Assembly: GCF_004792695.1 (NCBI RefSeq)
Contig: NZ_SRXU01000001.1
Span: 248,001 to 312,000, forward strand
Direction: 5' to 3'
Length of the DNA stretch: 64,000 bases
Source: Sphingomonas naasensis
GTDB lineage: Bacteria; Pseudomonadota; Alphaproteobacteria; Sphingomonadales; Sphingomonadaceae
Position numbers and translations under genes: made by a program. The notes under the pieces are model-generated. The model was not told the origin of the DNA. It searched no databases and worked only from the letters and a program-made list of their open reading frames with translations. This document shows, piece by piece, positions 4,882-62,544 of this stretch. Position 1 is the first letter of the stretch; every line of letters begins with the position of its first letter.

Positions 4882-4920
4882 GCGACTAGCGATGTTCGCT
4901 GGCGCGTGGCGGGTCAAGGG

Positions 4921-5068
4921 GTAGCTCCTTCTCCCCTTGTGGGAGAAGGAAGGGGCCCGCTCGCGCAGCGAGTGGGAAGGATGAGGGGGACTGAGTCTCA
5001 CTCCCCCTCACCCTTCCGCCGACTTCGTCGGCTCCCTCCCTCTCCCACAAGGGGAGAGGGAAAGAAGA
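4921..5068. repeat. intergenic palindromic repeat pair
   Basis: Two short hairpin units with cores CCTTCTCCCCTTGTGGGAGAAGG and its relative CTCTCCCACAAGGGGAGAG face each other about 100 bases apart, with further matching segments (cactccccctcaccctt and related) between them. They can form one long imperfect stem. It sits between the cckA start and the M13 peptidase stop, both on the minus strand. It is probably an extragenic palindrome of the kind scattered in Sphingomonad genomes; it could also end peptidase transcription. Confidence 0.7.
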
Positions 5069-5070
5069 CA

Positions 5071-7783: not shown

Positions 7784-8255
7784 GGTCGCGGAGGATCCGG
7801 CCTTGCTCGCGCTTCCAATCCCGCTCCTTGATGGACTCGCGCTTGTCATGCGTCTTCTTGCCCTTTGCGAGCGCGAGCTCGACCTTCGCGCGCCCCCGTG
7901 CATTGAAATAGATCGAGAGCGGGACGAGCGTCATGCCCTCACGTGCCACCGCACCGTGGAGCTTGTTTATTTCGCGCTCGTGAAGGAGCAATTTACGCGG
8001 CCGCTTGGGCTCGTGATTATAGCGGTTGCCGTGGCTGAATTCGGGGATGTTCGAATTGACCAGCCAGACGCCGGTATCGGTCACCTCGGCATAGGCCTCG
8101 GCGATCGAGCCCTCGCCGAAGCGCAGCGACTTCACTTCGGTGCCGGTCAGCGCGATCCCCGCCTCATAGGTATGTTCGATGAAATAATCGAACCGCGCGC
8201 GCCGGTTCTCGGCGACGGTCTTGACCTTCTCGGAATGGGCGTGCGGGCGAGCCAT
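7776..8255 (-). CDS. smpB: SsrA-binding protein SmpB
   Basis: Protein of 159 residues starting [20 protein letters not shown]. SmpB binds tmRNA and brings it to stalled ribosomes for trans-translation. Family marks are the ENRRARFDY start, GTEVKSLR, the strand [17 protein letters not shown], the RPRKLLLH motif, and the basic C-terminal tail [20 protein letters not shown] that folds into the mRNA channel. Length equals the usual 150-165. The ATG at 8255 was chosen over 8315 because conservation begins there. No tmRNA gene was recognised in the window. Confidence 0.97.
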
Positions 8256-8317
8256 GGGAGGAGCGCATGTAGGGGGACGACGGGCGGAAGGGAAGCGCGT
8301 CGGCCGCTGTGGCAAAA

Positions 8318-8347
8318 GAAAAGGGCCCGGCGTGCGCCGGGCCCTTC
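8318..8347 (-). terminator. rho-independent terminator of the TonB receptor gene
   Basis: A perfect 12-bp stem AAGGGCCCGGCG / CGCCGGGCCCTT (8321-8332 and 8335-8346) with a two-base loop. Read on the minus strand it is followed by a TTCTTTT run, which fits termination of the receptor gene that ends at 8391. Confidence 0.75.
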
Positions 8348-8390
8348 GTATCGGCTCACCCTCCCCTCGCGGCGGAGGACATTGCCAGCC

Positions 8391-10703
8391 TCAGCGCGTG
8401 CGGGCGCTGAACGAGATGCCGATGACGCGCGGATCGTTGAACACCGCGGCCATATAGTTCTCGATCACCCCCTTGAGGTTCTTCTCGTTGGTGATGTTGC
8501 GCGCGAACGCCGCAATCTCCCATTCGCCGCCATTGCCTTCATAGCCGATCTTGAGACCGCCTTCGAAGTTGCCGTCCGAGGTGAACTCCTTGGTGTCGTA
8601 GAGCACGAAGCTGGTGAAGCCCTGCAGGTTCCAATCGGTCGAGACGAAGAACTTGCCGTCGTTCGCGGTGGGGATGTCGTAGCGCGCGGCGACGTTGAGG
8701 TTGTACTCGGGCGCGTTAGGCAGTCGGTTGCCGTCGATCTTCGCGAAGACGCCGCGGCCGGCGATGGTCACGGTCGGATCGTTGACGGTGCAGACGATCA
8801 CGCCGCCGAGCACGCAGACCTGCGCCAGCGCGTTCTGATCGTCGATCTCGGTGTGCAGCCAGTTGCCGCCGAGCGACAGCGCGAGATTCTCGACCGGGTG
8901 CAGGTCGAGCTCGGCCTCGACGCCGTACGCCTTGGCCTTGTCGGCATTGAGCAGCACGCCGTTGCCGTTGACGTCGTTGGCGTTGAGCTGGATGTCGTCG
9001 ACCGTGTAGTAGAAGCCGCTCAGGTTGAAGCGGACGCGATTGTCGAGCAGCGCCCCCTTCACCCCGGCTTCCCACGACAGGATCGTCTCCGAATCAGCCG
9101 TGGTGAAGTCTGAGTTGAACACCGCGGAGCGCCCCTGGATCGTCGGGCCGCGGAAGCCGCTGGCGACGCGGGCGTAGAGGCTGACATCGTCGCTGAGCTT
9201 GTAGAGCGCGCTGACGTCCCAGCTCTCCTTGGTATCCTCGAGCTCGACGAAGCGACGGCCCGTGTAAGTCACCGCGCCGGTGCCGCTGTCGGCGGTCTTG
9301 AGCAGGCGAGTCGACTTGCTGTCGTTGGTGATCCGGGCGCCGCCGGTGAGCGTCAGGTTCGGCACGACCTCGTAGCTGATCTGACCGAAGCCGGCCCAGC
9401 TGGTGTTGACGTTGCGCAGCCGCACCCAGTTGTTGGGGTTGCGGCTGTTCGCGTTCGCCGGATCGAACGGCGCCGAGAGGAAATAGCGGCGCTGGTAGAA
9501 ATCGGTGATGTCACGCGAGTCGAAATAATAGCCGCCGAACTGCCAGTTGAACTTGCCGGTGCCCGGGCTGGCGAGGCGCAGCTCCTGGCTGAACTGGTCG
9601 AGATCGCGGACATTGCCCTGCGACTGGCCGTAGAAGAGCGCGCCCGGAAACAGCGTGGCCGCGCCGCCATCGGTGTCGCCGCGGCTATAGCCCTTGGTCG
9701 TCTCCCAGGCCGAGATCGAGGTGAGCACCGCGCCGCCGAGATCGTAGCTCGCGCGCAGCGATGCGCCATAGGTGTCATAGGCCTGCGGATTGTCCATTGC
9801 CTCGTCATAGGCGACGCGGTCACGGCGCTCGTTCTCGACGCTGTTCGAGCCCTTCATCAGCGCGCCGCGGTGGAACAATGTCGAGCTGCCCTTGTACCAG
9901 CGGCCATGGCCGGAAAGGTCGAAGGTCAGGCGATCGCTCGGGGTGAAGCGGAGCTGGAGGCGCAGGTTGCGATCATCAAAGCCGCCCATGGCGTTGAAGC
10001 TGCCGCGCGTGCCGTCATAGCTCGGCCCGGTATAGGTGTTGTCGACCCAGTCGTCGCGATGCTGATAGAGCCCCGAGACGCGGAACGAGAGCAGGTCCGA
10101 GACGATCGGCCCGCCGAAGCCGGCGTCGATATTGGCGCTGCCGAGCTCGCCGACCGACAGTGCGGCGCGACCCTCGAAGCTGTCGCTCGGCCGGATCGTG
10201 TCGAACTTGACGATGCCCGCGGTGGTGTTGCGGCCGAACAGCGAGCCCTGCGGGCCGCGCAGCACCTCGACACGATCGAGGTCATAGACCGGGTTCGACT
10301 TGAGCACGACATGCTCGAGCACGACATCGTCCTGGATGATCGACACCGGCTGCGAGGCGCCGAGATAGAAATCGATGTTGCCGAGGCCACGGATGTAGAA
10401 GCGCGGGAAGATGCGGCCGGTGGTCGTCTCGGCATAGAGGCCCGGGACGCGGCCGGCGAGCGCGAGCGTGTCGTCGCCTGCTGCCTGGAAGTCGCGGAGC
10501 TGCGCGCCCTGCACCACCGCCACCGACACCGGCACGTCGACGAGGCGCTCCTCGCGGCGCTGCGCGGTGACGACGATGTCGCCGGTGTCTGCCTGCGCGT
10601 CGGCGGCGACATCAGCTTCCTGCGCGAAGGCGGTGCCGGCGTAGAGCAAGGCGGCGATCGCTGCGCCCGAGCGGAGGGCGTGGCGGACAGATACGAATTT
10701 CAT
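8391..10703 (-). CDS. TonB-dependent outer-membrane receptor
   Basis: Protein of 770 residues with signal peptide (MKFVSVRHALRSGAAIAALL to AFA-QEAD), a TonB box-like DIVVTAQRREE, a plug domain (VSVAVVQGAQLRDF, FYIRGLGN, VEVLRGPQGSLFGRNTTAGI) and a 22-strand-type barrel ending in the C-terminal aromatic-containing strand GISFSARTR. The plug and TonB box style (ITAQRREE) is that of the Sphingomonad receptor family commonly annotated for catecholate-siderophore or unknown small-molecule uptake. The substrate cannot be fixed: no enzyme cluster adjoins it, since dapA upstream is housekeeping. It has its own terminator downstream and a 235-base upstream gap. Confidence 0.9.
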   Translation of the reverse strand: MKFVSVRHALRSGAAIAALLYAGTAFAQEADVAADAQADTGDIVVTAQRREERLVDVPVSVAVVQGAQLRDFQAAGDDTLALAGRVPGLYAETTTGRIFPRFYIRGLGNIDFYLGASQPVSIIQDDVVLEHVVLKSNPVYDLDRVEVLRGPQGSLFGRNTTAGIVKFDTIRPSDSFEGRAALSVGELGSANIDAGFGGPIVSDLLSFRVSGLYQHRDDWVDNTYTGPSYDGTRGSFNAMGGFDDRNLRLQLRFTPSDRLTFDLSGHGRWYKGSSTLFHRGALMKGSNSVENERRDRVAYDEAMDNPQAYDTYGASLRASYDLGGAVLTSISAWETTKGYSRGDTDGGAATLFPGALFYGQSQGNVRDLDQFSQELRLASPGTGKFNWQFGGYYFDSRDITDFYQRRYFLSAPFDPANANSRNPNNWVRLRNVNTSWAGFGQISYEVVPNLTLTGGARITNDSKSTRLLKTADSGTGAVTYTGRRFVELEDTKESWDVSALYKLSDDVSLYARVASGFRGPTIQGRSAVFNSDFTTADSETILSWEAGVKGALLDNRVRFNLSGFYYTVDDIQLNANDVNGNGVLLNADKAKAYGVEAELDLHPVENLALSLGGNWLHTEIDDQNALAQVCVLGGVIVCTVNDPTVTIAGRGVFAKIDGNRLPNAPEYNLNVAARYDIPTANDGKFFVSTDWNLQGFTSFVLYDTKEFTSDGNFEGGLKIGYEGNGGEWEIAAFARNITNEKNLKGVIENYMAAVFNDPRVIGISFSARTR

Positions 10704-10938: not shown

Positions 10939-11820
10939 CTAGATCAACCCGGCGTGCGCCAGCGCGGCGTCGATCGCGGCGCGGCTGGCATCCGAGGGCT
11001 CGGTCATCGGCAGGCGCAGCTCGACCGGGAAACCGGGACGCACCTTGCCGAGCGCGTACTTCACCGGCCCCGGCGAGGCATCGCTGAACATCGCGAGATG
11101 GAGCGGGAACAGGCGATCGTGCAGCGCCAGCGCCCGCGCATTGTCGCCGAGCGCCCATGCCGCCTGGAACTCTGCGCAGAGGCGCGGGGCGACATTGGCG
11201 GTCACCGAGATGCAGCCCACCCCGCCCATCGCGTTGAACGCGAGCGCCGTCTCGTCATTGCCCGAGAGCTGGACGAAATCGGTGCCGCACGCCGCGCGCT
11301 GCTCGGTGACACGGGCCAGCTGGCCGGTGGCGTCCTTGACGCCGAGGAAGCGCCCCGGAAACGCCTCGACGATCCGCGCCATCGTCGCGGGCTGGATGTC
11401 GGTCACGGTGCGGCCGGGGACGTTGTAGAGCACGATCGGCAGATCGGTCGCGTGGACCACGGCCTCGAAATGCCGGAAGATGCCTTCCTGGCTCGGGCGA
11501 TTATAATAGGGCGGCACCATCAGCACCGCGTCGGCGCCCGAAAAGGTTGCCGCATGGACGTTGGCGATCGCCACCTCGGTGTCGTTCGAGCCGGCGCCGG
11601 CGAGAACCTTCACCCTGCCCTTCGCCTGATCGGCGCAGATGCGGACGACTTCGAAATGCTCGTCCTTGGTGAGCGTCGCGGCTTCGCCGGTGGTGCCGCA
11701 TGGAACCAGCGCCGACGAGCCTTCGGCAATCTGCCATTCAACAAGCTCGCGGTAATCTCGCTCTGCGAAGCTGCCGTTACGGAACGGCGTGACCAGAGCG
11801 GGAATCGAGCCGGAGAACAT
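10939..11820 (-). CDS. dapA: 4-hydroxy-tetrahydrodipicolinate synthase
   Basis: Protein of 293 residues that condenses pyruvate with aspartate semialdehyde in the first committed step of lysine and diaminopimelate synthesis. The class I aldolase Schiff-base lysine is Lys162 in RFLGVKDATG. Tyr132 (LYNVPGRT) and Thr44/Thr45 (PCGTTGEAATL) form the proton relay, Tyr106 is in PPYYNRP, and Arg137 in the GRT motif follows. Length matches E. coli DapA (292). It is divergent from the lytic transglycosylase with a 59-base gap, so both promoters must be packed there. Confidence 0.96.
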   Translation of the reverse strand: MFSGSIPALVTPFRNGSFAERDYRELVEWQIAEGSSALVPCGTTGEAATLTKDEHFEVVRICADQAKGRVKVLAGAGSNDTEVAIANVHAATFSGADAVLMVPPYYNRPSQEGIFRHFEAVVHATDLPIVLYNVPGRTVTDIQPATMARIVEAFPGRFLGVKDATGQLARVTEQRAACGTDFVQLSGNDETALAFNAMGGVGCISVTANVAPRLCAEFQAAWALGDNARALALHDRLFPLHLAMFSDASPGPVKYALGKVRPGFPVELRLPMTEPSDASRAAIDAALAHAGLI

Positions 11821-11879
11821 GGCGTGAAATTCTTCCTCAAATCCCGAGATCGGGACTGGCAGATAGGCGGCGAGTCCGT

Positions 11880-13898
11880 ATGATGTCCAGCATGCTCGGG
11901 TCGGTTATCAAGAGCGCTGTATTGCTCGCTGGGGTGTCGGGGGTCGCGGTCTCATCGCAGCTCACGCAGGAACAAATTCGCTCGGTCGCGGGGGCGATCC
12001 AGAGCATGGGCTCGCCGGTGCCCCCGGCCTATGCCCAGTCCGATTCGGTCGGCATCGCGCTGGCCGAATGGAAGCGACTCCAGCAGTCCGACAACTGGCC
12101 CTTCTCCGACTATGCCAATTTCATGCTCGCCCATCCGGGCTGGCCGGGCGAGACCAGCCGGCGCGCCGCCGCCGAGACCGTGCTCGACAGCGGCAGCTTC
12201 GCGCCGGGGCTGGTGGTGCGCTTCTTCGAGCGCTTTGCGCCGCTGACCCCGGCCGGGCATCTGCGCTTCGCCGAGGCGCTCGCCGCCTCTGGCCGGCGCG
12301 CGGACGCGAACGAGCAGGCGCGCAAGGCGTGGCGCGCGGGGACGTTGCGCGCCGCCGACGAGAGCAAGCTGATGGCGGGCTTCCTGCCCGCGCTGAGCCC
12401 GGCCGATCATGACGCGCGGATGGACGTGCTGCTGTGGAAGGGCGCGACGAGCGCCGCCACGCGGCAGCTGGTCTATGTCTCGCCGGCGAAGCGCCCGATC
12501 TTCGAGGCGCGGATCGCGTTCCGGACACGGGCGGCCGACGCGGCGCTCAAGGGCGCCAATGCGATGGACATCGGCCGCAGCGATCCGGGCTTCATCGCCG
12601 ATCGCGCGCTGTGGCTGCGCGACAATGGCCAGAGCCCCGCGATGCGCGCCTATCTGGCGCAGCGCCCGCGGCTGAGCGCCTATCCTGGCGATGCCGAGGA
12701 ATGGTATGAAGTGCTGCTGCTCGCCGCGCGCGGCGCCTCGTCGGACGGCCAGCACAGCCTCGCCTGGCAGATCGCCAGCCAGGTCGACGACGCCTTCCCC
12801 TCGACCACGGTGATCGCCGAGCTGCCGCTGGGCGAGCGTGACGACTATACCAGCCTGACCTGGCTCGCCGGCACCACCGCCTACTACAATCTCGGCCGTC
12901 CGCGCGATGCGATCGGAATGTTCGAACGCTATTCGCGCGGATCGAAGACCCCGACGACGCAGTCCAAGGGGCTGTATTGGGCCGGGCGCGCCGCCGAGGC
13001 GGCAGGCGACCAGGCCGCGGCGACCGACTATTTCACCCGTGCCGCCGGCTTCTCTGATCTGTTCTACGGCCAGCTCGCCGCCGAGCGGCTCGGACGGGCG
13101 CTCAAGGGCCCGCCCCCGCTCGACACCCGCGTCGCATCGCCGGAGGCGCGCGACGCCTTTTACCGGCGCGAGACGGTCCGCGCCGCGCAGTTGCTCGGGA
13201 CGATGGGCGACCGCGTCTCGCAGGGGCTGTTCATCCGCCAGATCGCGCGCGACGCGACGACCGACAACGACCATGTCCTCGCCGCCGAGCTCAGCCGGAC
13301 GATCGGGCGCCCCGATCTCGGCGTGATGGTCGGGCGCAGCGCGCTCGAGAACGGCCTGTCGGACTATACTGCGGCAGGCTTCCCCTCGGTCCGCGTCCCC
13401 GAATCGCAGCGCGATTATTGGACGATCGTCCATGCGATCGCGCGGCAGGAGAGCCAGTTCGACCGCGCCGCGGTGAGCCACGCCGGCGCGCGCGGGCTGA
13501 TGCAGCTGATGCCGGGCACCGCCGCCGAGACCGCGGGCAAGCTCGGGCTGAGCTACGATCGGGAATCGCTGACCACCGATACCGACTACAACATCAAGCT
13601 CGGCTCGACCTATTTCCAGCGGATGTTCAATCTCTATGGCAGCTATCCGCTGGCGGTGGCGGCCTATAATGCCGGGCCGGGCAATGTGAACAAATGGATC
13701 CGCGCCAATGGCGATCCGCGCCTGCCGGGCGGCGACATGGTCAAATGGATCGAGCAGATCCCGATCTTCGAGACCAAGAACTATGTCCAGCGCGTGCTGG
13801 AGAACGCCGTGGTCTATGACCTGATCAACCCCGAGCACGCCCGTTCGCGGGGCCCGGCGAACATGAGCTGGTATCTGGGCAAGAACCGGCCGGGTTGA
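11880..13898 (+). CDS. soluble lytic murein transglycosylase (Slt70 family)
   Basis: Protein of 672 residues. An N-terminal signal segment (VIKSAVLLAGVSGVAV) precedes a long alpha-superhelical region with TPR-like repeats (residues about 60-470), and the catalytic SLT domain is at the C-terminus. The catalytic acid is Glu524 in ARQESQFD. The family motifs AGARGLMQLMP, the YNIKLGSTYF segment and AAYNAGPGNVNKW follow. Such enzymes cut glycan strands between N-acetylmuramic acid and N-acetylglucosamine, forming 1,6-anhydro ends, in the periplasm. Start choice among the early ATGs (11880, 11883, 11892) is uncertain. Confidence 0.93.
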   Translation: MMSSMLGSVIKSAVLLAGVSGVAVSSQLTQEQIRSVAGAIQSMGSPVPPAYAQSDSVGIALAEWKRLQQSDNWPFSDYANFMLAHPGWPGETSRRAAAETVLDSGSFAPGLVVRFFERFAPLTPAGHLRFAEALAASGRRADANEQARKAWRAGTLRAADESKLMAGFLPALSPADHDARMDVLLWKGATSAATRQLVYVSPAKRPIFEARIAFRTRAADAALKGANAMDIGRSDPGFIADRALWLRDNGQSPAMRAYLAQRPRLSAYPGDAEEWYEVLLLAARGASSDGQHSLAWQIASQVDDAFPSTTVIAELPLGERDDYTSLTWLAGTTAYYNLGRPRDAIGMFERYSRGSKTPTTQSKGLYWAGRAAEAAGDQAAATDYFTRAAGFSDLFYGQLAAERLGRALKGPPPLDTRVASPEARDAFYRRETVRAAQLLGTMGDRVSQGLFIRQIARDATTDNDHVLAAELSRTIGRPDLGVMVGRSALENGLSDYTAAGFPSVRVPESQRDYWTIVHAIARQESQFDRAAVSHAGARGLMQLMPGTAAETAGKLGLSYDRESLTTDTDYNIKLGSTYFQRMFNLYGSYPLAVAAYNAGPGNVNKWIRANGDPRLPGGDMVKWIEQIPIFETKNYVQRVLENAVVYDLINPEHARSRGPANMSWYLGKNRPG

Positions 13899-13929
13899 CC
13901 AGGGCTCCCGGCGGAGCGACGGGTGGGGG

Positions 13930-14406
13930 ATGGATCGCCCGAACTACATCACCCCCGCGGGTTATTCCGCGCTCAAGGCCGAATATGACGCGCTGTTCGC
14001 GACCGAGCGCCCGCAGCTGGTCGAGACGATCGCATGGGCGGCGGGCAATGGCGATCGCTCGGAGAATGGCGACTATATCTATGGCCGCAAAAGGCTGCGC
14101 GAGATCGATCGTCGGCTGGGCTGGCTCTCGAAGCGGATGAAGGCGGCCAAGGTGGTCGATCCGGCGGCGCAGGAAGACCGTAGCCGCGTGTTCTTCGGCG
14201 CGACCGTGACCATCGCCGACGAGGACGACAATCAACGCGTGCTGACCCTCGTCGGCGACGACGAGGCCGATGCCGGCAAGGGGCTGATCGGCTGGAACGC
14301 CCCCCTTGCCCGCGCGCTGCGCGGCGCCGCGCTCGGCGATCTGCGTCGGGTGACGCTGCCCGGTGGCGAGCGCGAATATGAAGTGATCGCGGTCACTTAC
14401 CCCTGA
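13930..14406 (+). CDS. greB: transcription elongation factor GreB
   Basis: Protein of 158 residues. GreB enters the secondary channel of RNA polymerase and stimulates cleavage of backtracked RNA. The start NYITPAGYSALKAEYDALF is the coiled-coil opening, and the tip acidic loop is seen in GDRSENGDYIYGRKRLREIDRR with the D and E residues that coordinate the catalytic Mg2+. The C-terminal FKBP-like domain carries VFFGATVTIADEDD and the ARALRGAALGD motif. GRKRLREIDRR marks GreB rather than GreA. It starts 31 bases after the transglycosylase stop, possibly cotranscribed. Confidence 0.93.
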   Translation: MDRPNYITPAGYSALKAEYDALFATERPQLVETIAWAAGNGDRSENGDYIYGRKRLREIDRRLGWLSKRMKAAKVVDPAAQEDRSRVFFGATVTIADEDDNQRVLTLVGDDEADAGKGLIGWNAPLARALRGAALGDLRRVTLPGGEREYEVIAVTYP

Positions 14407-15327: not shown

Positions 15328-16251
15328 TCAGCTGCAGGAGGCGAGCTTCGCCATCGCCTCCTGCAGCAACGGCTTGACCTTCTCGGGCGGCATCTTCGCG
15401 AGCGTGGCGAGATCGTGCGTCGCGCCGATCGTCTGCGCGAGGCGATAGCCCAGATAATAGCCGAAGCGCGGCGGCCAGGCCGTGGTCGCGCCTGAACCGC
15501 CCACGAAGAACGCGCGGATGTCCGCCTTGTCCTGCGATGCGAATTTGCCGCGCGTGAAGCAAACCACTTCGGCGAGCTTCGGCTCGACCTCGGGCCGGAT
15601 CGGTCGCGGCTGGTTGAGCAGCAGGCCGGAATCGTCAACGCCGGGGTTCATCCGCGCCGCGGCATAGACCGCGAGCCCCTCGATCCACAGGCTGCACCAG
15701 AGTTCGCCGCAATCGGCGAAATATTGGCCATGGTAGATGTGGAAGAGCTCGTGATCGAAGAACGGCCCGATCGTCTTCGTATCATGGATGCGCGCGATCA
15801 CGTCGGCGCCGAACACCATCACGTCCTTGCCACGCAAAGTCCGGCCGCCGCCGTCCATCTCGCCGAGCGAATGGACGAGATAAATCGGCACGGTCGGGCG
15901 GAAATCGGGAAAAGCGACGCGGAAATGCTGGATCCCGGCGGTGTAGGCGCGGCGGAACGCGGTGGCGGCGGCGAGATATTTGTCTCGTTGTGCCGGATAG
16001 TCGGCAAGCGCCTTGGCGACACGCGCGTCATATTTGGCGTCGTCGAGACCGTTGCGCGGCTCGTAGAAGCCTGGAAGCAGGCGATTGAAACGCGCGCGAA
16101 ACAGCTTCACGCGCTCGGCCTCCGGCATCGCCTGCGTTTCGGTCGCGAACCGGTCGAAATCCGTGGTGTAGGAGGTGAACGCCGGCGCGGTCTGCGCCGA
16201 TGCGGGGATCCCGACAAGAGTCAGTGCGATTGCGACAAGCCTGGCGATCAT
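15328..16251 (-). CDS. putative exported zinc-dependent protease (HExxH)
   Basis: Protein of 307 residues with a clear signal peptide MIARLVAIALTLVGIPASAQ. A candidate metalloprotease centre is HELFH (His167, Glu168, His171), followed 20 residues on by WIEGLAVYAAAR, where Glu191 could be the third ligand, as in gluzincins and DUF2268-like predicted proteases. I do not recognise a named family with certainty. It converges with the DoxX gene (3 bases between stops) and is the last of a six-gene minus-strand run from ettA. Confidence 0.65.
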   Translation of the reverse strand: MIARLVAIALTLVGIPASAQTAPAFTSYTTDFDRFATETQAMPEAERVKLFRARFNRLLPGFYEPRNGLDDAKYDARVAKALADYPAQRDKYLAAATAFRRAYTAGIQHFRVAFPDFRPTVPIYLVHSLGEMDGGGRTLRGKDVMVFGADVIARIHDTKTIGPFFDHELFHIYHGQYFADCGELWCSLWIEGLAVYAAARMNPGVDDSGLLLNQPRPIRPEVEPKLAEVVCFTRGKFASQDKADIRAFFVGGSGATTAWPPRFGYYLGYRLAQTIGATHDLATLAKMPPEKVKPLLQEAMAKLASCS

Positions 16252-16287
16252 TCAGGTGTGTTAGGAAGCCACGACACGCTTGTCCAT

Positions 16288-16749
16288 CTACGCGCGATCG
16301 AGTTTGAGTTCCTTGCGTTGGATGACCACGGCAATGCCGCGCGCATCGATTTCGAACCCGGCGACGTGAAAGCCGTGGCGCAGGTTGAGCAGGATCATCG
16401 GATTATTGGCGGCGCGCGTGCTGGTCTCGACGAAGCGATAGCCTGCAGCCGCCGCATGGTCGTGCTGGCGCCGCATCAATTCCGACGCGACGCCCTGCCC
16501 GCGCATCCGCGGATCGACGCCGCCGAGCCACGAGTAGAGCAAGCCTTCACCGCGACGATAGCCGAGCTTGAAGCCGACCCACTCGCCCTGATCGATTGCC
16601 AGCCAGAGATCGGCATCGGCGATATGCGGCACCCGGCCGCGCAGATAGGCGGGATCGAATGTGCCGAACACGGCGGTGCAGAGCGCGAGCAACGGGTCGG
16701 CGGCGTCGGCGACGGTGCCCGTCCAGCGCTGATAGTCGATTTCGGCCAT
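16288..16749 (-). CDS. GNAT family N-acetyltransferase
   Basis: Protein of 153 residues starting MAEIDYQRW. The acetyl-CoA binding motif A is visible as GVDPRMRGQGVASELMRRQHD (R-G-Q-G-V), followed by the helix and motif B segment VETSTRAANNPMILLNLRHGF, where asparagine and aromatic residues typical of GNAT enzymes sit. Substrate unknown. The start at 16749 is preferred to 16785 because conserved sequence begins there and the longer form overlaps the next gene. Confidence 0.8.
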   Translation of the reverse strand: MAEIDYQRWTGTVADAADPLLALCTAVFGTFDPAYLRGRVPHIADADLWLAIDQGEWVGFKLGYRRGEGLLYSWLGGVDPRMRGQGVASELMRRQHDHAAAAGYRFVETSTRAANNPMILLNLRHGFHVAGFEIDARGIAVVIQRKELKLDRA

Positions 16750-16781
16750 GGCCGGACTAGACCCGCGCATGTTGCTGCGCG

Positions 16782-17798
16782 TCAAGGTCGCTGCAGCGCG
16801 CCCGAGCGTACCACCGCCTCCAGCCCGGTCACGACGCGGGCCAGCCGGGCATAATCCAGTTTGTCCGACGTATCCGCCGTGCTGTGATAGCGCGGATAGC
16901 GAAACGGCGCGGTGTCGGTGATCATCAGCGCGGGGAAGCCGGCCTGCTCAAAAGCCCAGTGATCCGACCAGTCGATCCCCTGCACGAAGCCGGGCGCGGT
17001 GCCGCCGACGCTCGGAAACGCGGCGCGCGCGCGGAACGCGGCGACGCTGCGGCGGACGAAATCGCGCGAGCCGGTGGTGCCGACGAACGCGATGAAATTC
17101 CCGGTGTCGGGATAGAGCCAGCCCAACGGGAACGGATAATGCTGGCTGCCGGGCCGGTCGTCATAATAGCCCAGCGTCTCGAGCGACCACATCCCGCGCA
17201 CTTTCTCCCCCGAGGCGCGCAGCCGCTCGGCATAGACGCGGCTGCCCATATAGTCGGTCTGGAAGAAGGGCGGCTCTTCGTTGGCGAAGAAGACGAAGCG
17301 GATCGGGGCGCCGACCTCGGCCTTCAGATCGGCGAGCATGCGCGCGAGCTCGAGCAGGGCCGCCACCCCCGAACCATTGTCGTTGGCGCCTGGGGCCGAA
17401 AAGGCGCTGTCATAATGCGCACCGATCACCAGCGACGGTCCGGGGCCGTCATCGGGGAGGAGCGCGACTTCGATGTTGCGCGCGCGCCCGTTATCGAAGC
17501 GCTGGGTCGCGACTTGATAGCCAAAGCCCGCGAGCGTCGTCTCGATATATCTCGCCGAGCGTTCGAACGCCTCGGGGTGGCCGATATTGTGGGGCTCGCG
17601 CGCGATTGCCTCGACATGCCGGCGCAACCGCTGCGCCAGCTCGGTCTCCTTCGCGGTACGCGGCGACAACGGTCCGGCATAGGATTTGCCGGGCACCGCG
17701 GTCATCCAAAGCAACGCGATCACCGGAATGGCGAACAGCGCCACGACCAGCGCGAACGCAATCAGGCGCGCGTTGTGCGCACGGAACCAAAGCCGCAT
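16782..17798 (-). CDS. M28 family aminopeptidase, membrane-anchored
   Basis: Protein of 338 residues. The N-terminal hydrophobic stretch LIAFALVVALFAIPVIALLW is a membrane anchor or signal, so the catalytic domain is periplasmic. M28 di-zinc ligands are visible in GAHYDSAF (His), GANDNGSGVAALLELAR (bridging Asp), FFANEEPPFF (catalytic Glu and Glu ligand), ITDTAPFR (Asp) and PRYHSTADTSDKLD (His). These enzymes remove N-terminal amino acids from peptides. The conserved region starts just after 17798; the longer in-frame extension upstream runs through the neighbouring gene. Confidence 0.9.
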   Translation of the reverse strand: MRLWFRAHNARLIAFALVVALFAIPVIALLWMTAVPGKSYAGPLSPRTAKETELAQRLRRHVEAIAREPHNIGHPEAFERSARYIETTLAGFGYQVATQRFDNGRARNIEVALLPDDGPGPSLVIGAHYDSAFSAPGANDNGSGVAALLELARMLADLKAEVGAPIRFVFFANEEPPFFQTDYMGSRVYAERLRASGEKVRGMWSLETLGYYDDRPGSQHYPFPLGWLYPDTGNFIAFVGTTGSRDFVRRSVAAFRARAAFPSVGGTAPGFVQGIDWSDHWAFEQAGFPALMITDTAPFRYPRYHSTADTSDKLDYARLARVVTGLEAVVRSGALQRP

Positions 17799-17847
17799 GG
17801 CGTCCCTCCCCCGGCGGCAGTTTGTCGGCAATCCCGCGCCTCGGCAA

Positions 17848-18585
17848 TCAGCCGCGGATGATCTCCTCGAGCAATCGCACGGTATTGGCGTCGGGCTCGC
17901 CGTCATAGGCGCGGACCTTGGCCAAGGCCTGTTCGGCGCATCGGCGGATACGGGCATCGTCCTCGGGGCCGAGCAGCCGCATCGCGTTCCTGAGCACGAA
18001 GGCCGACTGGAAGAACAGGAAGGGCGGATCGCTGCCAAACCGGCCGAGCAGCCAATCGAGATCGAGCAGGCCGGGATCGAGCTGCATCATCGCGATGGCC
18101 GCAAGCCGCTCGCCGGGAGACTCCGATGCCTTGAGCTCGCCGATCAGATGCGCCAGCGCCGGGCCGATCGTGCGCATCTTGACCAGCACCTCGGTCATCG
18201 CGCGCTCGCGCTCGCGGCCGGGCGGCAGGGTCCGGCGCACGATGTCGAATTCCAACGAGAGCTGGTGGAGCTGCGCCCGGAGCGCCGAATCGTCGAGCGC
18301 CTTCGCCGCGACCTGCACGCGGGTAGCCGAGCGTATCTGTTGCGGCGTGAGCTTGCCGGGATCGGCGAGCGCGGCGTCGACCAGCCCCTCGGTCTCCTTT
18401 TCGAGCTCGGCCTCGAACACGCCCAGCTTCACCTTGCGCATCCGCTTGACCAGCGCGGGGACATTCTCCGCCGCGAGCAGGATCTGGGTGCGGAACATCA
18501 GGAAGACGAGGATCAGCGACACCGGCCAGACGATCGCCGCGATGAGCGCGGCGATCGCAGTGATGAGCGCGGCCCAACCGGTCAT
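17848..18585 (-). CDS. hypothetical protein with N-terminal membrane helix
   Basis: Protein of 245 residues, not recognised. Residues 5-33 form a hydrophobic helix (ALITAIAALIAAIVWPVSLI), followed by a charged helical stretch AENVPALVKRMRKVKLGVFEAELEKE and a mostly helical soluble domain ending in VRLLEEIIRG. GGGGA-type ribosome binding bases precede the ATG. Related to nothing I can name; it may be a membrane-tethered scaffold. It lies 49 bases before the M28 peptidase on the same strand. Confidence 0.7.
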   Translation of the reverse strand: MTGWAALITAIAALIAAIVWPVSLILVFLMFRTQILLAAENVPALVKRMRKVKLGVFEAELEKETEGLVDAALADPGKLTPQQIRSATRVQVAAKALDDSALRAQLHQLSLEFDIVRRTLPPGRERERAMTEVLVKMRTIGPALAHLIGELKASESPGERLAAIAMMQLDPGLLDLDWLLGRFGSDPPFLFFQSAFVLRNAMRLLGPEDDARIRRCAEQALAKVRAYDGEPDANTVRLLEEIIRG

Positions 18586-58179: not shown

Positions 58180-58255
58180 GGCCCCTTCGTCTAGCGGTCT
58201 AGGACGTCGCCCTCTCACGGCGAAAACACGGGTTCGAGTCCCGTAGGGGTCACCA
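58180..58255 (+). tRNA. tRNA-Glu (anticodon CUC)
   Basis: A 76-base cloverleaf with CCA. Acceptor GGCCCCT pairs with AGGGGTC (one G-U), D-arm CGTCTAGCGGTCTAGGACG, anticodon loop CTCTCAC with CTC, T arm GGTTCGAGTCC. The 3' half is the probable insertion site of the following integrative element. Confidence 0.95.
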
Positions 58256-58418: not shown

Positions 58419-59651
58419 ATGGCCCTGACCGCCCTCGCGATCAAAAGCGCCAAGAGTCGCGCCAAGCCCTACAAGCTAGCCGACAGCGACGGCCTCTATC
58501 TGCTGGTGACGCCCTCGGGCGGCCGCTGCTGGCGGATGAACTATCGCCATCTCGGCAAGCAGAAGACTCTGGCATTCGGCACCTGGCCCGACACCAGCCT
58601 TGCCGACGCTCGCGAGCGGCGCGATGCCGCGCGCAAGGTGCTGGGGCGGGGCGACGATCCGGCCGAGCAGATCAAGCTGGAACGCATCGCCGCAACCGTG
58701 GCGGCATCCAACAGCTTCAAGGCGGTCGCCGACGAATGGCTGACCAAGGCCGAGAAGGAAGGCCGTTCGGCGGTCACGATGAAGAAGCTGCGCTGGCTGC
58801 TCGACTTCATCAATGAGTCGATCGGCAAGCGCCCTATCGCCGCGATCTCCGCGCAGGAGCTGCTGATCATGCTGCGCAAGATGGAGGGCAAGGGCAAGTA
58901 CGAGACGGCCAAGCGACTACGCAGCACATGCAGCCAAGTGTTCCGCTACGCCATCGCCACGGCCCGCGCTGAACGCGACGTTGCCGCCGACCTGCGCGGC
59001 GCGCTGATCGCCCCCAAGCCGGTCCACCGCGCCGCAATCACCGGCCCCAAGGAAGCAGGCGGCTTGCTCCGCGCCGTCGAGGCGTTCGAAGGGCATCCCA
59101 ACACAAAGGCGGCGCTGCGGCTCATGCCGCATGTGTTCGTGCGGCCCGGCGAGCTGCGCCATGCCGAATGGAGCGACTTCGATTTCGACAAGGCGCTTTG
59201 GACGATTCCGCCGCACAAGACCAAGATGCGGCGGGCGCATACCGTCCCCCTCTCCCACCAAGCGCTCGCCATCCTCGAAACCATCGAGCACGACGCGGAG
59301 TATAGCCGTTTCCTGTTCCCCTCCCTGCGGTCAGTGGATCGGCCGATGTCGGAGAACACGATCAACGCGGCGCTGCGACGCATGGGCTTCGCTCAGGACG
59401 AGATGACGGGCCACGGCTTCCGGGCGATGGCAGCGACGCTATTGAACGAGATGGGGCTATGGCATCCCGACGCGATCGAGCGCCAACTCGCCCACTGCGA
59501 CAACAACGCCGTCCGCCGAGCCTACGCCCGGGGCGAATATTGGGACGAGCGGGTCAAGATGATGCAGCACTGGTCCGACCATCTCGATTTCCTTCGCGAT
59601 GGCGCCAAGGTGCTCAAGGGCAAGTTTGGAAAGGCCCGAAGGCGGCTATAG
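58419..59651 (+). CDS. tyrosine integrase of P4 type (DUF4102 + phage integrase)
   Basis: Protein of 410 residues. The N-terminal DUF4102-like domain (LTALAIKSAKSRAKPYKLADS, FGTWPDTSLADARERRD) precedes a SAM-like core binding region and a catalytic domain. Visible catalytic residues are the arginine in FVRPGELRHAEW, the lysine region HTVPLSHQ, the H-x-x-R in GHGFRAMA, the histidine in ERQLAHCD and the tyrosine in YARGEYWDER. It should insert the element into the tRNA-Glu 3' end. GGGAGA lies 8 bases before the ATG. Downstream genes are typical cargo. Confidence 0.95.
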   Translation: MALTALAIKSAKSRAKPYKLADSDGLYLLVTPSGGRCWRMNYRHLGKQKTLAFGTWPDTSLADARERRDAARKVLGRGDDPAEQIKLERIAATVAASNSFKAVADEWLTKAEKEGRSAVTMKKLRWLLDFINESIGKRPIAAISAQELLIMLRKMEGKGKYETAKRLRSTCSQVFRYAIATARAERDVAADLRGALIAPKPVHRAAITGPKEAGGLLRAVEAFEGHPNTKAALRLMPHVFVRPGELRHAEWSDFDFDKALWTIPPHKTKMRRAHTVPLSHQALAILETIEHDAEYSRFLFPSLRSVDRPMSENTINAALRRMGFAQDEMTGHGFRAMAATLLNEMGLWHPDAIERQLAHCDNNAVRRAYARGEYWDERVKMMQHWSDHLDFLRDGAKVLKGKFGKARRRL

Positions 59652-59729
59652 TCGCCGAATCTAGATCTTGAACTGGACCGTCTCCAGCGTGTCCCGTTTT
59701 TAGATTGCCGCCGGTCGAAGCGGCATCAT

Positions 59730-60029
59730 CTAAAGGTCAGGTTTCTCGATACCGAAAAATCTCCAAGGATCGCCGGAGCCGACAAGCAGCGCCACATTTT
59801 CGCCTGCGGGCGCCGCCGAGTCTTCCCAGCCACCCGGTGAGAGCGCTTCAATGGCACTGGTACCGGGGCCGGTGATATAGATTTCGGACTCGGCCTGTCC
59901 CGGCTCGCTTTTCATGAACATCGCGAGGCTTTCAGGCCCGCCGCTCGCCACCATGAGATTGCCGAAATGACCCTGTAACGCCGCCCATTCCGCGAGCGGC
60001 AGCGACTTAGTGCGCCACAACATATCCAT
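59730..60029 (-). CDS. hypothetical island protein
   Basis: Protein of 99 residues from ATG 60029, not recognised. A GGGGG run directly precedes this ATG, so another start two codons later (60023) is also possible; an in-frame ATG lies at 60062. No membrane segment or known motif is visible. It lies between the integrase and the PIN-like gene and is divergent from the latter (78 bases). It may be a small accessory, immunity or antitoxin protein; nothing in the sequence decides this. Confidence 0.55.
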   Translation of the reverse strand: MDMLWRTKSLPLAEWAALQGHFGNLMVASGGPESLAMFMKSEPGQAESEIYITGPGTSAIEALSPGGWEDSAAPAGENVALLVGSGDPWRFFGIEKPDL

Positions 60030-60107
60030 CCCCCATAGGCGAATACCATGGGCTGCAATCATGCCTCACCTGCTGCAAATTGACTAGGCGCGCGCTACCT
60101 ACCAGCG

Positions 60108-60968
60108 ATGGCAATGCTACTCGCTGACTCGAACGCGCTAGGTAATCCCCAGCTCAAAACCTATCTCGCCGCGTCCCGCGATCATAACATCGCGCTATCC
60201 GACCTCACGCTGGTTGAGATGCGGAAGGAACACGCCATCACCAATTCCCGCATGTCGCTGCGCATCGCTTCGCAATTCCCGTCGCAAGTGTTCGTGCTGA
60301 AGCGCGCCCACGAAATTTTGGAGCTGAACATGTCGGCCAGTGCCGACGTTAATGCCCTTTTCGACTACGTCGCAGGCGTGGAGCTGAACCAAGATATGCT
60401 GGACCTTTCGACGGTCCCAGTGCCTGAACGCCTGAAGGTTCGCATGGCGGCACTCGAACCGGAGGCGGCCAACGTCGTCGCGGAGTTGGGCAAGCAGATG
60501 CACGACCTTGAAGAGGCGCTTGTGGACATCACCAAGGAGTTCAAGCCCGATCAGGTGAAGCAATTGCGGACCGGGCGCGACGTCACGGAGGACACGCGGC
60601 AAACCCTTTTCCGGCTGCTGAAGGAAACGACTGCGCGATTCTTCATCGACAACCAACAGCCCCTGAACCGGAAGAGTATTTCGCTCACCGAAGCGCGCGG
60701 CATGTTCGCGTTCCGTTACTCGCTGTGTATGATGATCTATTACATTCTGTGGGTGCAGAATGGGCGGCAGGTAGGACGCCCCGAGCATCTGCGCGTGAAC
60801 GACGTGATAGATATGCAACTCGCCACCGTGGGCACCTATTTCAATGGCGTGCTGAGCACCGACAAGCTGGTATGGAATACATCGCACGCCGTTCGTGCGG
60901 TTCTCCGACAGTTTGGCGCCTTCGTTGGCGAGGATTGGGTTCTACCAGAGTCCTTAGCGGCGCACTAA
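60108..60968 (+). CDS. PIN-like domain protein, possible nuclease
   Basis: Protein of 286 residues. The ends resemble a PIN fold: MLLADSNAL with Asp7, then DLTLVEMRKE with Glu37, and a C-terminal cluster NDVIDMQLATVG (Asp232, Asp235) and FNGVLSTDK (Asp252), which together could chelate two metals. Between them lies a long helical insertion (residues about 60-220) not seen in short toxins of the VapC type, so this may be a PIN-like defence nuclease. It converges on the HEPN-like gene with stop codons overlapping by 4 bases. Function is inferred; no biochemical evidence. Confidence 0.65.
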   Translation: MAMLLADSNALGNPQLKTYLAASRDHNIALSDLTLVEMRKEHAITNSRMSLRIASQFPSQVFVLKRAHEILELNMSASADVNALFDYVAGVELNQDMLDLSTVPVPERLKVRMAALEPEAANVVAELGKQMHDLEEALVDITKEFKPDQVKQLRTGRDVTEDTRQTLFRLLKETTARFFIDNQQPLNRKSISLTEARGMFAFRYSLCMMIYYILWVQNGRQVGRPEHLRVNDVIDMQLATVGTYFNGVLSTDKLVWNTSHAVRAVLRQFGAFVGEDWVLPESLAAH

Positions 60969-62146
60969 GGAAGTTCCTGCGGATACCTAATCTCGAAGAT
61001 TGGCTTGCCCGTTTTCGCTTCACGGCAGATTGCGTGCATCAAGCTGCTGGCAGGCTGCGAGTCGATGAAGTTCTGCACGAAATTCTGCGTCATCTCGGTC
61101 GCCATCTTCCGGGTGACCTTGGTGCCGGGCATGTTGATGTTCGTGCGCCCTTGCTTTGGCTCACCGCCGTCGTCGTCAACATAGGTGTAGTCGATCCTGA
61201 GCACGATTATCGCTCCTGACTTCGTGGCCTCCGCAAAGTGCCGTGGTCCAAGCTCCTCCGCAAACATCGGCGCGGAATACTCCTCTGACAGATAGAAGCA
61301 GATCATGGAGCATAGCCATGATAGGTCGCGGGCTTCATCCTGCTTGTCTGGACTCCACGCCCCAGGTTTCCGCCGGTTGCTATGGAAGTAATGGCCCCGG
61401 CGCTCGATCAGGTGGTCGGCGATCTCTTCCGGCGTCAGTGATCGCCGCAAGAGGGTGCCAGTCGGAGTGGCAGGCCGTGTTCGATCCTCCCGAAAGTCAG
61501 CCGTTGCCAATTTGATCGCGTCCATGAGCGTCGCGTGGCCCTTGAACGCCTTTTCGAGGCCGGCCTTCTTGAACTGCCCGTCGCTGAAAAAAGCATCGAG
61601 GATCAGGAAGTAGTAGCGGAAGGCATCAATGTAGCGGGCCTCCTTCGATGCTTCGCGGGCGTAACTGGTCAACGTGGCAAAGAGTCGGTATCGTTCGTCA
61701 TACGGTTTCTCTGCAGCCATCATCGCTCTGGTGAAGTAGTCGTAAGTCAGCACGAGCGGACGGTCATCTGCCTCGCCATAGCTGAAATGGCTTATCGCAA
61801 TGGCGTCGTTCTCTTCCGGCGTTTCGCCTTCGTATTCGGCATCCGTCCGATCGAAAGCGACTTGAACGGGGAATAGTGCCTGCATGAAGCTGAAGCCATT
61901 CCGAACCTGCTGACGAAGCATCGTTTGCAGCGGATCGTTGACCGTAATTTTAGGAGGCTGCCCCGGCTTGTCCGGGTCGGTCAAGGCAGGTGCAAGGGTT
62001 GTGGGCTGCCCGGTGAAGGTGAACTTCAATGCCCTCACCATGTCGCCGTCTGATACCAACGTCATACGGGCGCCCAGCACATCAATCGGCCAATGGTCCA
62101 GCATGCGAATAGGCTGCTTCAAGTGGACCGTATAGCGCGCGATCAT
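60965..62146 (-). CDS. large unknown protein with HEPN-like R-x4-H motif
   Basis: Protein of 393 residues, not recognised in full. The first 130 residues are beta-rich. The middle has a long helix DAFRYYFLILDAFFSDGQF at about 174-192, then a helical stretch ending in IERRGHYFHSN with R250-x4-H255, the arrangement of HEPN RNase active sites. A second beta-rich region follows (IIVLRIDYTYVDDDGG). No signal peptide. It is 9 bases downstream of a 62-codon reading frame and in the same direction as the AlpA gene. Partner is probably the convergent PIN-like gene. Apea/MauJ-like HEPN families are possible relatives. Confidence 0.6.
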   Translation of the reverse strand: MIARYTVHLKQPIRMLDHWPIDVLGARMTLVSDGDMVRALKFTFTGQPTTLAPALTDPDKPGQPPKITVNDPLQTMLRQQVRNGFSFMQALFPVQVAFDRTDAEYEGETPEENDAIAISHFSYGEADDRPLVLTYDYFTRAMMAAEKPYDERYRLFATLTSYAREASKEARYIDAFRYYFLILDAFFSDGQFKKAGLEKAFKGHATLMDAIKLATADFREDRTRPATPTGTLLRRSLTPEEIADHLIERRGHYFHSNRRKPGAWSPDKQDEARDLSWLCSMICFYLSEEYSAPMFAEELGPRHFAEATKSGAIIVLRIDYTYVDDDGGEPKQGRTNINMPGTKVTRKMATEMTQNFVQNFIDSQPASSLMHAICREAKTGKPIFEIRYPQELP

Positions 62147-62155
62147 CCTGGAAAA

Positions 62156-62344
62156 CTACCGCGCCACCGCCCGGAGGCAACCTTCAACCTCGCGGATATG
62201 GTACAAAATCGGTGGCCCGCGAACGGTCGGTTTCGGGACTAGGCCCATTCCGCCGAACGGCCAAATTTGAGGCGCGAAGCCGCCTTCACTCGGCGACGTC
62301 TTGACCGCGCTCTCGCCCCGGGAGAGCGCGGTAGCAGACATCAT
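62156..62344 (-). CDS. possible small protein between alpA and the HEPN-like gene
   Basis: A 62-codon frame starting with ATG that overlaps the AlpA stop by 4 bases (ATGA) and ends 9 bases before the HEPN-like gene. The overlap is the only evidence for translation; composition (proline and glycine rich, no motif) does not support a folded domain. Uncertain. Confidence 0.35.
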   Translation of the reverse strand: MMSATALSRGESAVKTSPSEGGFAPQIWPFGGMGLVPKPTVRGPPILYHIREVEGCLRAVAR

Positions 62345-62544
62345 TCTGCACTATCACCTCGATAGGCCATCGGATCGGCGATCCAGCGGTTGATGGCGGA
62401 CTCGTGCCAGCCGGCGCCGTGAATGCTGATCTTCACCCGTTGGGGAAACGTGCCCTCACCCATCTTTCGATACAGGGTCGTACGGGAAAGCCCGGTGCGA
62501 GCGAGGACGGTCTTGAGACGGATAATCCTTTCGGTGTTGGACAT
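62341..62544 (-). CDS. AlpA family transcriptional regulator
   Basis: Protein of 67 residues. The winged helix-turn-helix of AlpA/excisionase-like proteins is seen: RLKTVLARTGLSRTTLYRKMGEGTFPQRVKI, followed by GWHESAINRWIAD. Such proteins activate or restrain integrase and cargo genes in integrative elements, and some act as directionality factors. It is followed by a 62-codon frame overlapping by 4 bases and preceded by a tandem-repeat region. Confidence 0.9.
   Translation of the reverse strand: MSNTERIIRLKTVLARTGLSRTTLYRKMGEGTFPQRVKISIHGAGWHESAINRWIADPMAYRGDSAE

Follow-up and report, generated by a model that had tools for sequence, protein, structure and literature searches.

Two nuclease-like genes that end on each other in Sphingomonas naasensis raise the question of whether they form one defence system or are neighbours on the same mobile DNA. 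PIN and HEPN defence toxins commonly remain inactive until the cell is infected, whereupon they cleave tRNA, rRNA or mRNA, so that phage and cell are stopped together. For HEPN toxins, inactivity until infection followed by RNA cleavage is described in the accessible part of PMC3710099, where multiple cuts by associated RNases are also suggested to evade repair by phage RNA ligase. An earlier note on this DNA had read one protein as a PIN nuclease and the other as a HEPN nuclease, and had raised the pair as a possible system of its own. The locus is analysed here within its window, the whole stretch of 64,000 nucleotides, and compared with homologous loci in other genomes, plasmids and phage contigs (numbered L009, L010 and so on).

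The locus and its host element

The two large, unrelated ORFs described in the earlier note as lying end to end are both present, and their stop codons overlap by 4 bp (Table 1). Their reported placement just inside an integrative element at a tRNA-Glu gene also held up, as the tRNA, the integrase, the AlpA gene and a 17-bp att repeat were all found. The second copy of the tRNA-Glu 3' end (attR) lies at window-equivalent position 81700, past the end of the window; the element thus spans about 23.5 kb, most of it outside the window. In this element, a cassette of three ORFs is flanked by the integrase gene on one side and the AlpA gene on the other. The sole plus-strand ORF of at least 50 aa wholly within the gap between the integrase and PIN genes (59705-59875) has a TTG start and is antisense to the conserved small ORF. 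The remainder of the element, at window-equivalent positions 64787-77750 (L058, L059), seems by eye to hold a gene for a MobA/MobL-like relaxase and an export cluster of ABC and HlyD-like genes, both labels coming from inspection rather than from a search.

Table 1. Features of the locus, in window coordinates.
Feature	Position	Strand	Basis or remark
tRNA-Glu (CTC), integration target	58180-58255	+	Last 17 bases (58239-58255) are attL; their copy is attR
Tyrosine integrase of the element	58419-59651	+	Phage_integrase 1.4e-22, Arm-DNA-bind_3 3.7e-24, Phage_int_M 8.6e-31
Cassette (small ORF, PIN, HEPN)	59674-62284		DNA similarity to L027 and L025
Small ORF, 110 aa	59730-60062	-	Divergent to PIN, 45 bp separating the start codons
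PIN-like ORF, 286 aa, predicted RNase	60108-60968	+	Acidic residues, VapC profile score
Overlap of convergent PIN and HEPN stop codons, 4 bp	60965-60968
HEPN-like ORF, 393 aa	60965-62146	-	R250-x4-H255 motif, model
AlpA-type regulator of the element, beyond the cassette limits	62341-62544	-	Phage_AlpA 2.3e-15

A mobile cassette in related bacteria

Homologues of the HEPN-like gene were collected by a pattern-seeded alignment scan of one genome for each of 84,980 species, which gave 27 loci as a lower bound, in genera of the Alpha-, Beta- and Gammaproteobacteria. Three are close by amino acid identity of the HEPN-like protein, namely those of Sphingobium scionense (L025, 93%), Sphingomonas echinoides (L027, 90%) and a Sphingomonas metagenome-assembled genome (L026, 89%). 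At the DNA level, L027 is 90% identical to the window over 59674-62284 and L025 is 93% identical over 59694-62284, where the match falls into two pieces; in both, similarity stops at these limits. The surroundings differ: L027 has metabolic-looking genes, and the L025 block is flanked by an oxidoreductase-like gene and, at its opposite end, by a caspase-like gene (all judged by eye). No tRNA was found near either cassette in the 21 kb available for each. A block of about 2.6 kb occupies three unrelated sites in three related bacteria; it is a compact cassette, found in two genera, in which no recombinase is seen. Between the window and L027, dS is 0.15 for the small ORF, 0.22 for the PIN gene and 0.42 for the HEPN gene.

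Two of these loci are incomplete. In L025, transposase-like genes split the PIN gene (11446-14354) and the HEPN gene stays open. In L026, the HEPN gene is present and both the PIN gene and the small ORF are absent, with similarity to the window starting at 60961, which is the junction between the two large genes. The cassette was also considered as a transposon, but reading its ends by eye showed neither terminal inverted repeats nor a duplicated target site. For its left end (81 bp), no second good copy was found in the genome of the window, the next best match having an E-value of 0.16. Near the L025 cassette, at 16076-17977, the caspase-like gene recognized by eye is accompanied by a gene for a 221-aa partner.

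The PIN-like protein

Homologues elsewhere and low dN/dS values indicate that both large ORFs are real genes. For the PIN gene, dN/dS is 0.085-0.18 (window against L027, L020 and L009), and for the HEPN gene it is 0.055-0.21 (window against L025, L026 and L027), which points to purifying selection in both. The residues named in the earlier note (Asp7, Glu37, Asp232, Asp235 and Asp252 of the first protein, Arg250 and His255 of the second) are all correctly placed. The PIN-type acidic layout claimed for the first protein stands for the most part: D7, E37 and D235, together with N9 and R203, are invariant in an alignment of 16 PIN-type rows, and a VapC profile lends support, but the two other acidic positions vary, with D232 kept in 13 rows and replaced by Gln in 3, and position 252 being Asp in 12, Glu in 3 and a gap in 1. 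A long, apparently helical stretch separates the first from the last acidic residues.

Against a reference profile built from 26 VapC-type PIN sequences of related genomes, the whole PIN alignment reached an hhalign score of 26.3, compared with 15.7 for the best of 16 other families, among them the HEPN family and the small-ORF family. With the insert removed, the score was 24.4, and 200 column shuffles averaged 10.5 and did not exceed 16.8. The alignment covers the N-terminal stretch only, where D7 and E37 fall on the Asp and Glu of VapC, and the hhalign probability is just 9-14%. The single PIN sequence of the window, searched with the VapC HMM, ranked 16 of 803 at a non-significant E-value of 2.0 (rank 1 being a true VapC), and the 16 PIN homologues as a group outranked the remainder (Mann-Whitney p 0.0027, relatedness not corrected).

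Library searches gave nothing firm. Nothing in the Pfam, NCBIfam, PADLOC and PHROGs libraries matched the window PIN above cut-off, and a Pfam scan of the 16 rows reached only 5.7e-4 at best. That value belongs to Phage_Hfq on residues 60-137, found in 2 of the 16 members at 20.5 bits against a cut-off of 24.2, and the match was set aside. A sequence search of solved structures returned no PIN entry, the best hit being DNA gyrase A (E 0.0046). The AlphaFold2 model was too poor for structure search (pLDDT 42.3, 5 usable sequences). From its sequence, the first protein is likely to have a PIN-type fold of the VapC-like kind. It shares with VapC-type RNases (PF01850) an Asp close to the N-terminus, a Glu about 30 residues on, later Asp residues and the N-terminal profile match. 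It differs from them in its length (286 aa against roughly 130-140), its long insert, the lack of a co-directional upstream antitoxin and the absence of a Pfam PIN match.

The HEPN-like protein

The R250-x4-H255 motif reported for the second protein is present and is strongly conserved: R250, G251, F254 and H255 are invariant in all 26 HEPN rows (25 of them distinct), at identities down to 26%. A good model could be built (26 sequences, pLDDT 83.6), with a beta-rich N-terminal part (residues 1-106), a helical part (about 135-310) and an alpha/beta C-terminal part (312-390). In this model, helix 239-254 has R250 close to its end, H255 comes directly after it, and another long helix then follows.

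Searches for the HEPN fold itself gave no clear match. No family of Pfam, NCBIfam, PADLOC or PHROGs matched the window protein above cut-off; across the 26 rows, Pfam reached 0.008 at best with no HEPN family, and PADLOC 0.0058. The latter value comes from PDC-S58, which matched 3 of the 26 members and was set aside as weak, as was MauJ (1 of 26, E 0.098). The ApeA-like HEPN family (PF18739) was absent among the families retrieved when all 26 rows were scanned with an E-value limit of 10, although most matches with E above 0.1 are discarded by the filters of HMMER. A sequence search of solved structures returned no HEPN entry (best E 0.72), and the HEPN profile scored 15.5 against 15 PF05168-type HEPN sequences, not above other families (up to 17.0). 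Structure prediction with structural search had been put forward in the earlier note as the check on both labels, and it backed neither, the PIN model having a pLDDT of 42 and the HEPN model finding no HEPN structure among the Foldseek and VIA-align matches listed, although absence from the VIA-align matches is compatible with a HEPN fold. Foldseek against the PDB and viral libraries gave nothing at E <= 0.001, and the top VIA-align matches fit the C-terminal part, the first being the phage protein Dmd. With fold and profile searches giving no clear answer, what speaks for the HEPN label is the motif and its place among helices.

These results bear on whether the second protein is a HEPN RNase at all. 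The R-x4-H could instead be a structural or another catalytic motif, in a protein with a role other than RNA cleavage, and the want of any HEPN match by Pfam, structure or profile search would fit such a role. So would the residue that follows the Arg, which is Gly in 26 of 26 rows; in HEPN families this residue is usually Asn, Asp or His, according to the accessible part of PMC3710099. We nevertheless consider this quite unlikely, given that all 26 rows, at identities as low as 26%, keep the Arg and His, that the motif lies in the model where one long helix ends and another is to follow, and that some neighbours are defence genes.

Two groups of HEPN proteins invite comparison. Like the ApeA/BMEI1217-type and other HEPN abortive-infection proteins, as far as these are covered in the accessible part of PMC3710099, the window family has a beta-rich N-terminal part followed by a helical R-x4-H part, and defence genes neighbour some of its homologues. 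It is unlike them in having no Pfam HEPN match in 26 rows, an alpha/beta C-terminal part and Gly after the Arg. RnlA and LsoA (RNase LS) are HEPN toxins countered by Dmd, and it is Dmd that residues 312-390 resemble (residues 312-393 correspond to window 60968-61213), with a Z of 5.9 over 61 residues at an rmsd of 2.6. However, a Z below 8 may reflect a mere common arrangement, and there is no sequence match. A table in the accessible part of PMC3710099 gives a TATA-binding-like part for some RNase LS proteins.

Do the two genes belong together?

Adjacency in a single genome does not make a system, and the distribution of the two genes was surveyed. Six-frame profile searches found PIN near 2 of the 27 HEPN loci (L025 and L027) and HEPN near none of 17 PIN loci outside cassettes. 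At 21 HEPN loci, close to 10 kb could be searched on either side; L032, L033, L036, L047, L050 and L051 had one or both flanks shorter than this, and the flanks of the PIN loci measured about 0.6 to 10 kb. Among 296 genomes of the order, PIN occurs in 7 and HEPN in 4, and both occur only in the window's own genome. Among 385 genomes of the class (alignment search, best candidates scored), PIN was found in 1, the window's own, and HEPN in 2, the window's own and one more. For plasmids (72,556), the counts are 10 for PIN, 2 for HEPN and none for both. Neither was found in 50,697 phage records at E up to 0.01, and in IMG/VR two contigs carry PIN (L020 and L024) and none carries HEPN. The claim that the pair is one system thus fared poorly in this survey, where the two stand together only in the cassette, that is, in the window, in L027 and, with PIN split, in L025.

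At a few loci, one of the two genes has a neighbour that recalls the other. In Phytobacter massiliensis (L031), a VapC gene (6495-6899, E 1.2e-22) lies about 3 kb from HEPN, the sole such match in 27 loci, and on plasmid pRLN3 of Rhizobium leguminosarum (L013), HEPN has an annotated NYN-domain gene (8039-8836) at a distance of about 0.9 kb; the title of a reference listed in PMC3710099 presents NYN as PIN-like. On a plasmid of Sphingomonas parapaucimobilis (L010), a gene for a 301-aa R-x4-H protein (motif NARSKAAH) precedes a PIN homologue of 51% identity with a 4-bp overlap, the two occupying 5099-6004 and 6001-6906, and in L015 a 173-aa R-x4-H protein is encoded two genes from PIN.

If PIN and HEPN were one two-component defence or toxin-antitoxin system needing both proteins, their joint presence in the three cassettes (PIN broken in one) and their overlapping stops would follow, and the PIN-like or R-x4-H neighbours in L010, L015, L031 and L013 would be looser parallels. 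We regard such a system as improbable because the two are mostly distributed separately. L026 keeps an 89% identical HEPN without PIN, L020 has an 81% identical PIN without this HEPN within its 10.4-kb contig, the HEPN of L025 is open despite the split PIN, and the R-x4-H proteins of L010 and L015 do not match the HEPN profile of the window. More elaborate, and very improbable in our judgement, is a cooperative two-RNase abortive-infection unit in which PIN and HEPN would cut different RNAs or sites, so that repair of RNA by the phage would fall behind, the small ORF would encode a regulator and the whole would move as the 2.6-kb cassette, with its own genes as limits and no recombinase. Were this to be true, the PIN-like and R-x4-H neighbours in L010, L015, L013 and L031 would count as further, separate instances of one principle.

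That the two genes are mostly found apart speaks against an obligate PIN-HEPN pair and suggests neighbours rather than one machine. Our preferred reading, to which we assign a probability of roughly 0.55, is that the cassette consists of two stand-alone predicted defence RNase genes stacked as mobile cargo. The earlier note knew of no described system with this pair, and searches of open-licence literature brought up no such pair in bacteria. PIN and HEPN are combined in Swt1; however, as presented in the accessible part of PMC3710099, Swt1 is one eukaryotic fusion whose HEPN pair is called inactive, whereas here there are two bacterial genes with a mostly separate distribution.

The small ORF and the gene junctions

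The small ORF adjoins PIN in the window, in L025 and in L027, and also on the phage contig L020, where the two are convergent. Its dN/dS against the window is 0.28 in L025 and 0.59 in L027, a weaker purifying signal than that of PIN and HEPN, and two comparisons with L020 yielded no dS. It has no family match in Pfam, PADLOC, NCBIfam or PHROGs. One could suppose that PIN and this divergent ORF are a toxin-antitoxin-like pair in which the small ORF would act as the antitoxin or as a regulator, HEPN being unrelated cargo. The adjacency at these four loci favours such a pair, which we consider unlikely, since the remaining PIN loci examined hold no match to the small ORF, its distant relatives occur in 3 of 296 genomes, all without a PIN match, no family match supports it and a simple scan found no promoter-like site in the 45 bp separating the two start codons. 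PIN was also considered as the toxin of a VapBC module and this was rejected, as its upstream gene is the divergent small ORF and no co-directional antitoxin is present among ORFs of at least 50 aa. In L106, a relative of the small ORF (4791-5081) lies, by eye, beside prophage tail-like genes.

The simple scan likewise found no promoter-like site upstream of HEPN, so separate transcription is suggested by gene direction. As regards antisense regulation through the 4-bp overlap, a possibility raised in the earlier note, the scan found no terminator-like site at the junction of the PIN and HEPN stops, and transcripts of the two genes may thus run into each other. The gene that meets the PIN stop varies. 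In the cassette it is HEPN, in L020 it is the small ORF and in L024 an ORF of 148 aa, and the overlap is 4 bp in all three cases; in L009, a 591-aa ORF lies 6 bp past the stop.

Proposed role of the cassette

The PIN-like and HEPN-like proteins represent families that are new but of a familiar kind, and the mobile cassette that carries them is most likely anti-phage cargo. As stand-alone predicted RNases, each would be inactive in healthy cells and, upon phage infection, would cut host or phage RNA and abort the infection. The two would be separate genes that merely meet at their stops and became stacked into one block in Sphingomonadaceae. Should both become active during the same infection, cuts of two kinds might outpace the repair of RNA by the phage. 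Observed here are the genes, their conservation, the block at three unrelated sites, the mostly separate distribution and the defence genes close to some homologues, whereas we infer the RNase activity, separate transcription, trigger and abortive outcome. The analysis adds two families without a match in the searched libraries to the likely defence RNases.

Defence genes near homologues

The association with defence that had been proposed for the pair is borne out in part, as defence genes lie near some homologues of both PIN and HEPN. Ten neighbours of PIN and ten of HEPN were chosen for their defence-like look and compared with PADLOC models, and the counts come without a background rate. 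On the PIN side, 5 gave strong matches, 1 a weak match (L056, E 1.9e-7) and 4 none. A Dsr1-like SIR2 gene (1.6e-76) follows the PIN homologue in L010, a short-Argonaute-type SIR2 (3.5e-222) lies near that of L052 and HamB (4.4e-34) near that of L054, and in Ochrobactrum quorumnocens (L060, 1717-4831) the PIN homologue is directly behind the PtuA-PtuB genes of Septu (2.8e-104 and 1.1e-62). The resemblance to Dsr1, short-Argonaute SIR2, Hachiman and Septu loci thus consists of single PIN homologues at most two genes away, but the partner system differs by locus, and no PADLOC model is matched by the window PIN. In L012 and L063, the genes annotated near PIN include those for a DNA methyltransferase and for very-short-patch repair (restriction-modification).

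On the HEPN side, 3 neighbours gave strong matches, 3 weak and 4 none, the strong ones being PDC-S06 in L039, PDC-M54A/Avs4 in L049 and an AriA/Old-type ATPase in L026. HEPN is without a constant partner, the commonest neighbour family being present in 4 of 24 loci. The two IMG/VR contigs with PIN (L020, 7166-8346; L024, 9890-11184) have similar phage structural genes, and PIN lies near a gene that by eye is serine-recombinase-like.
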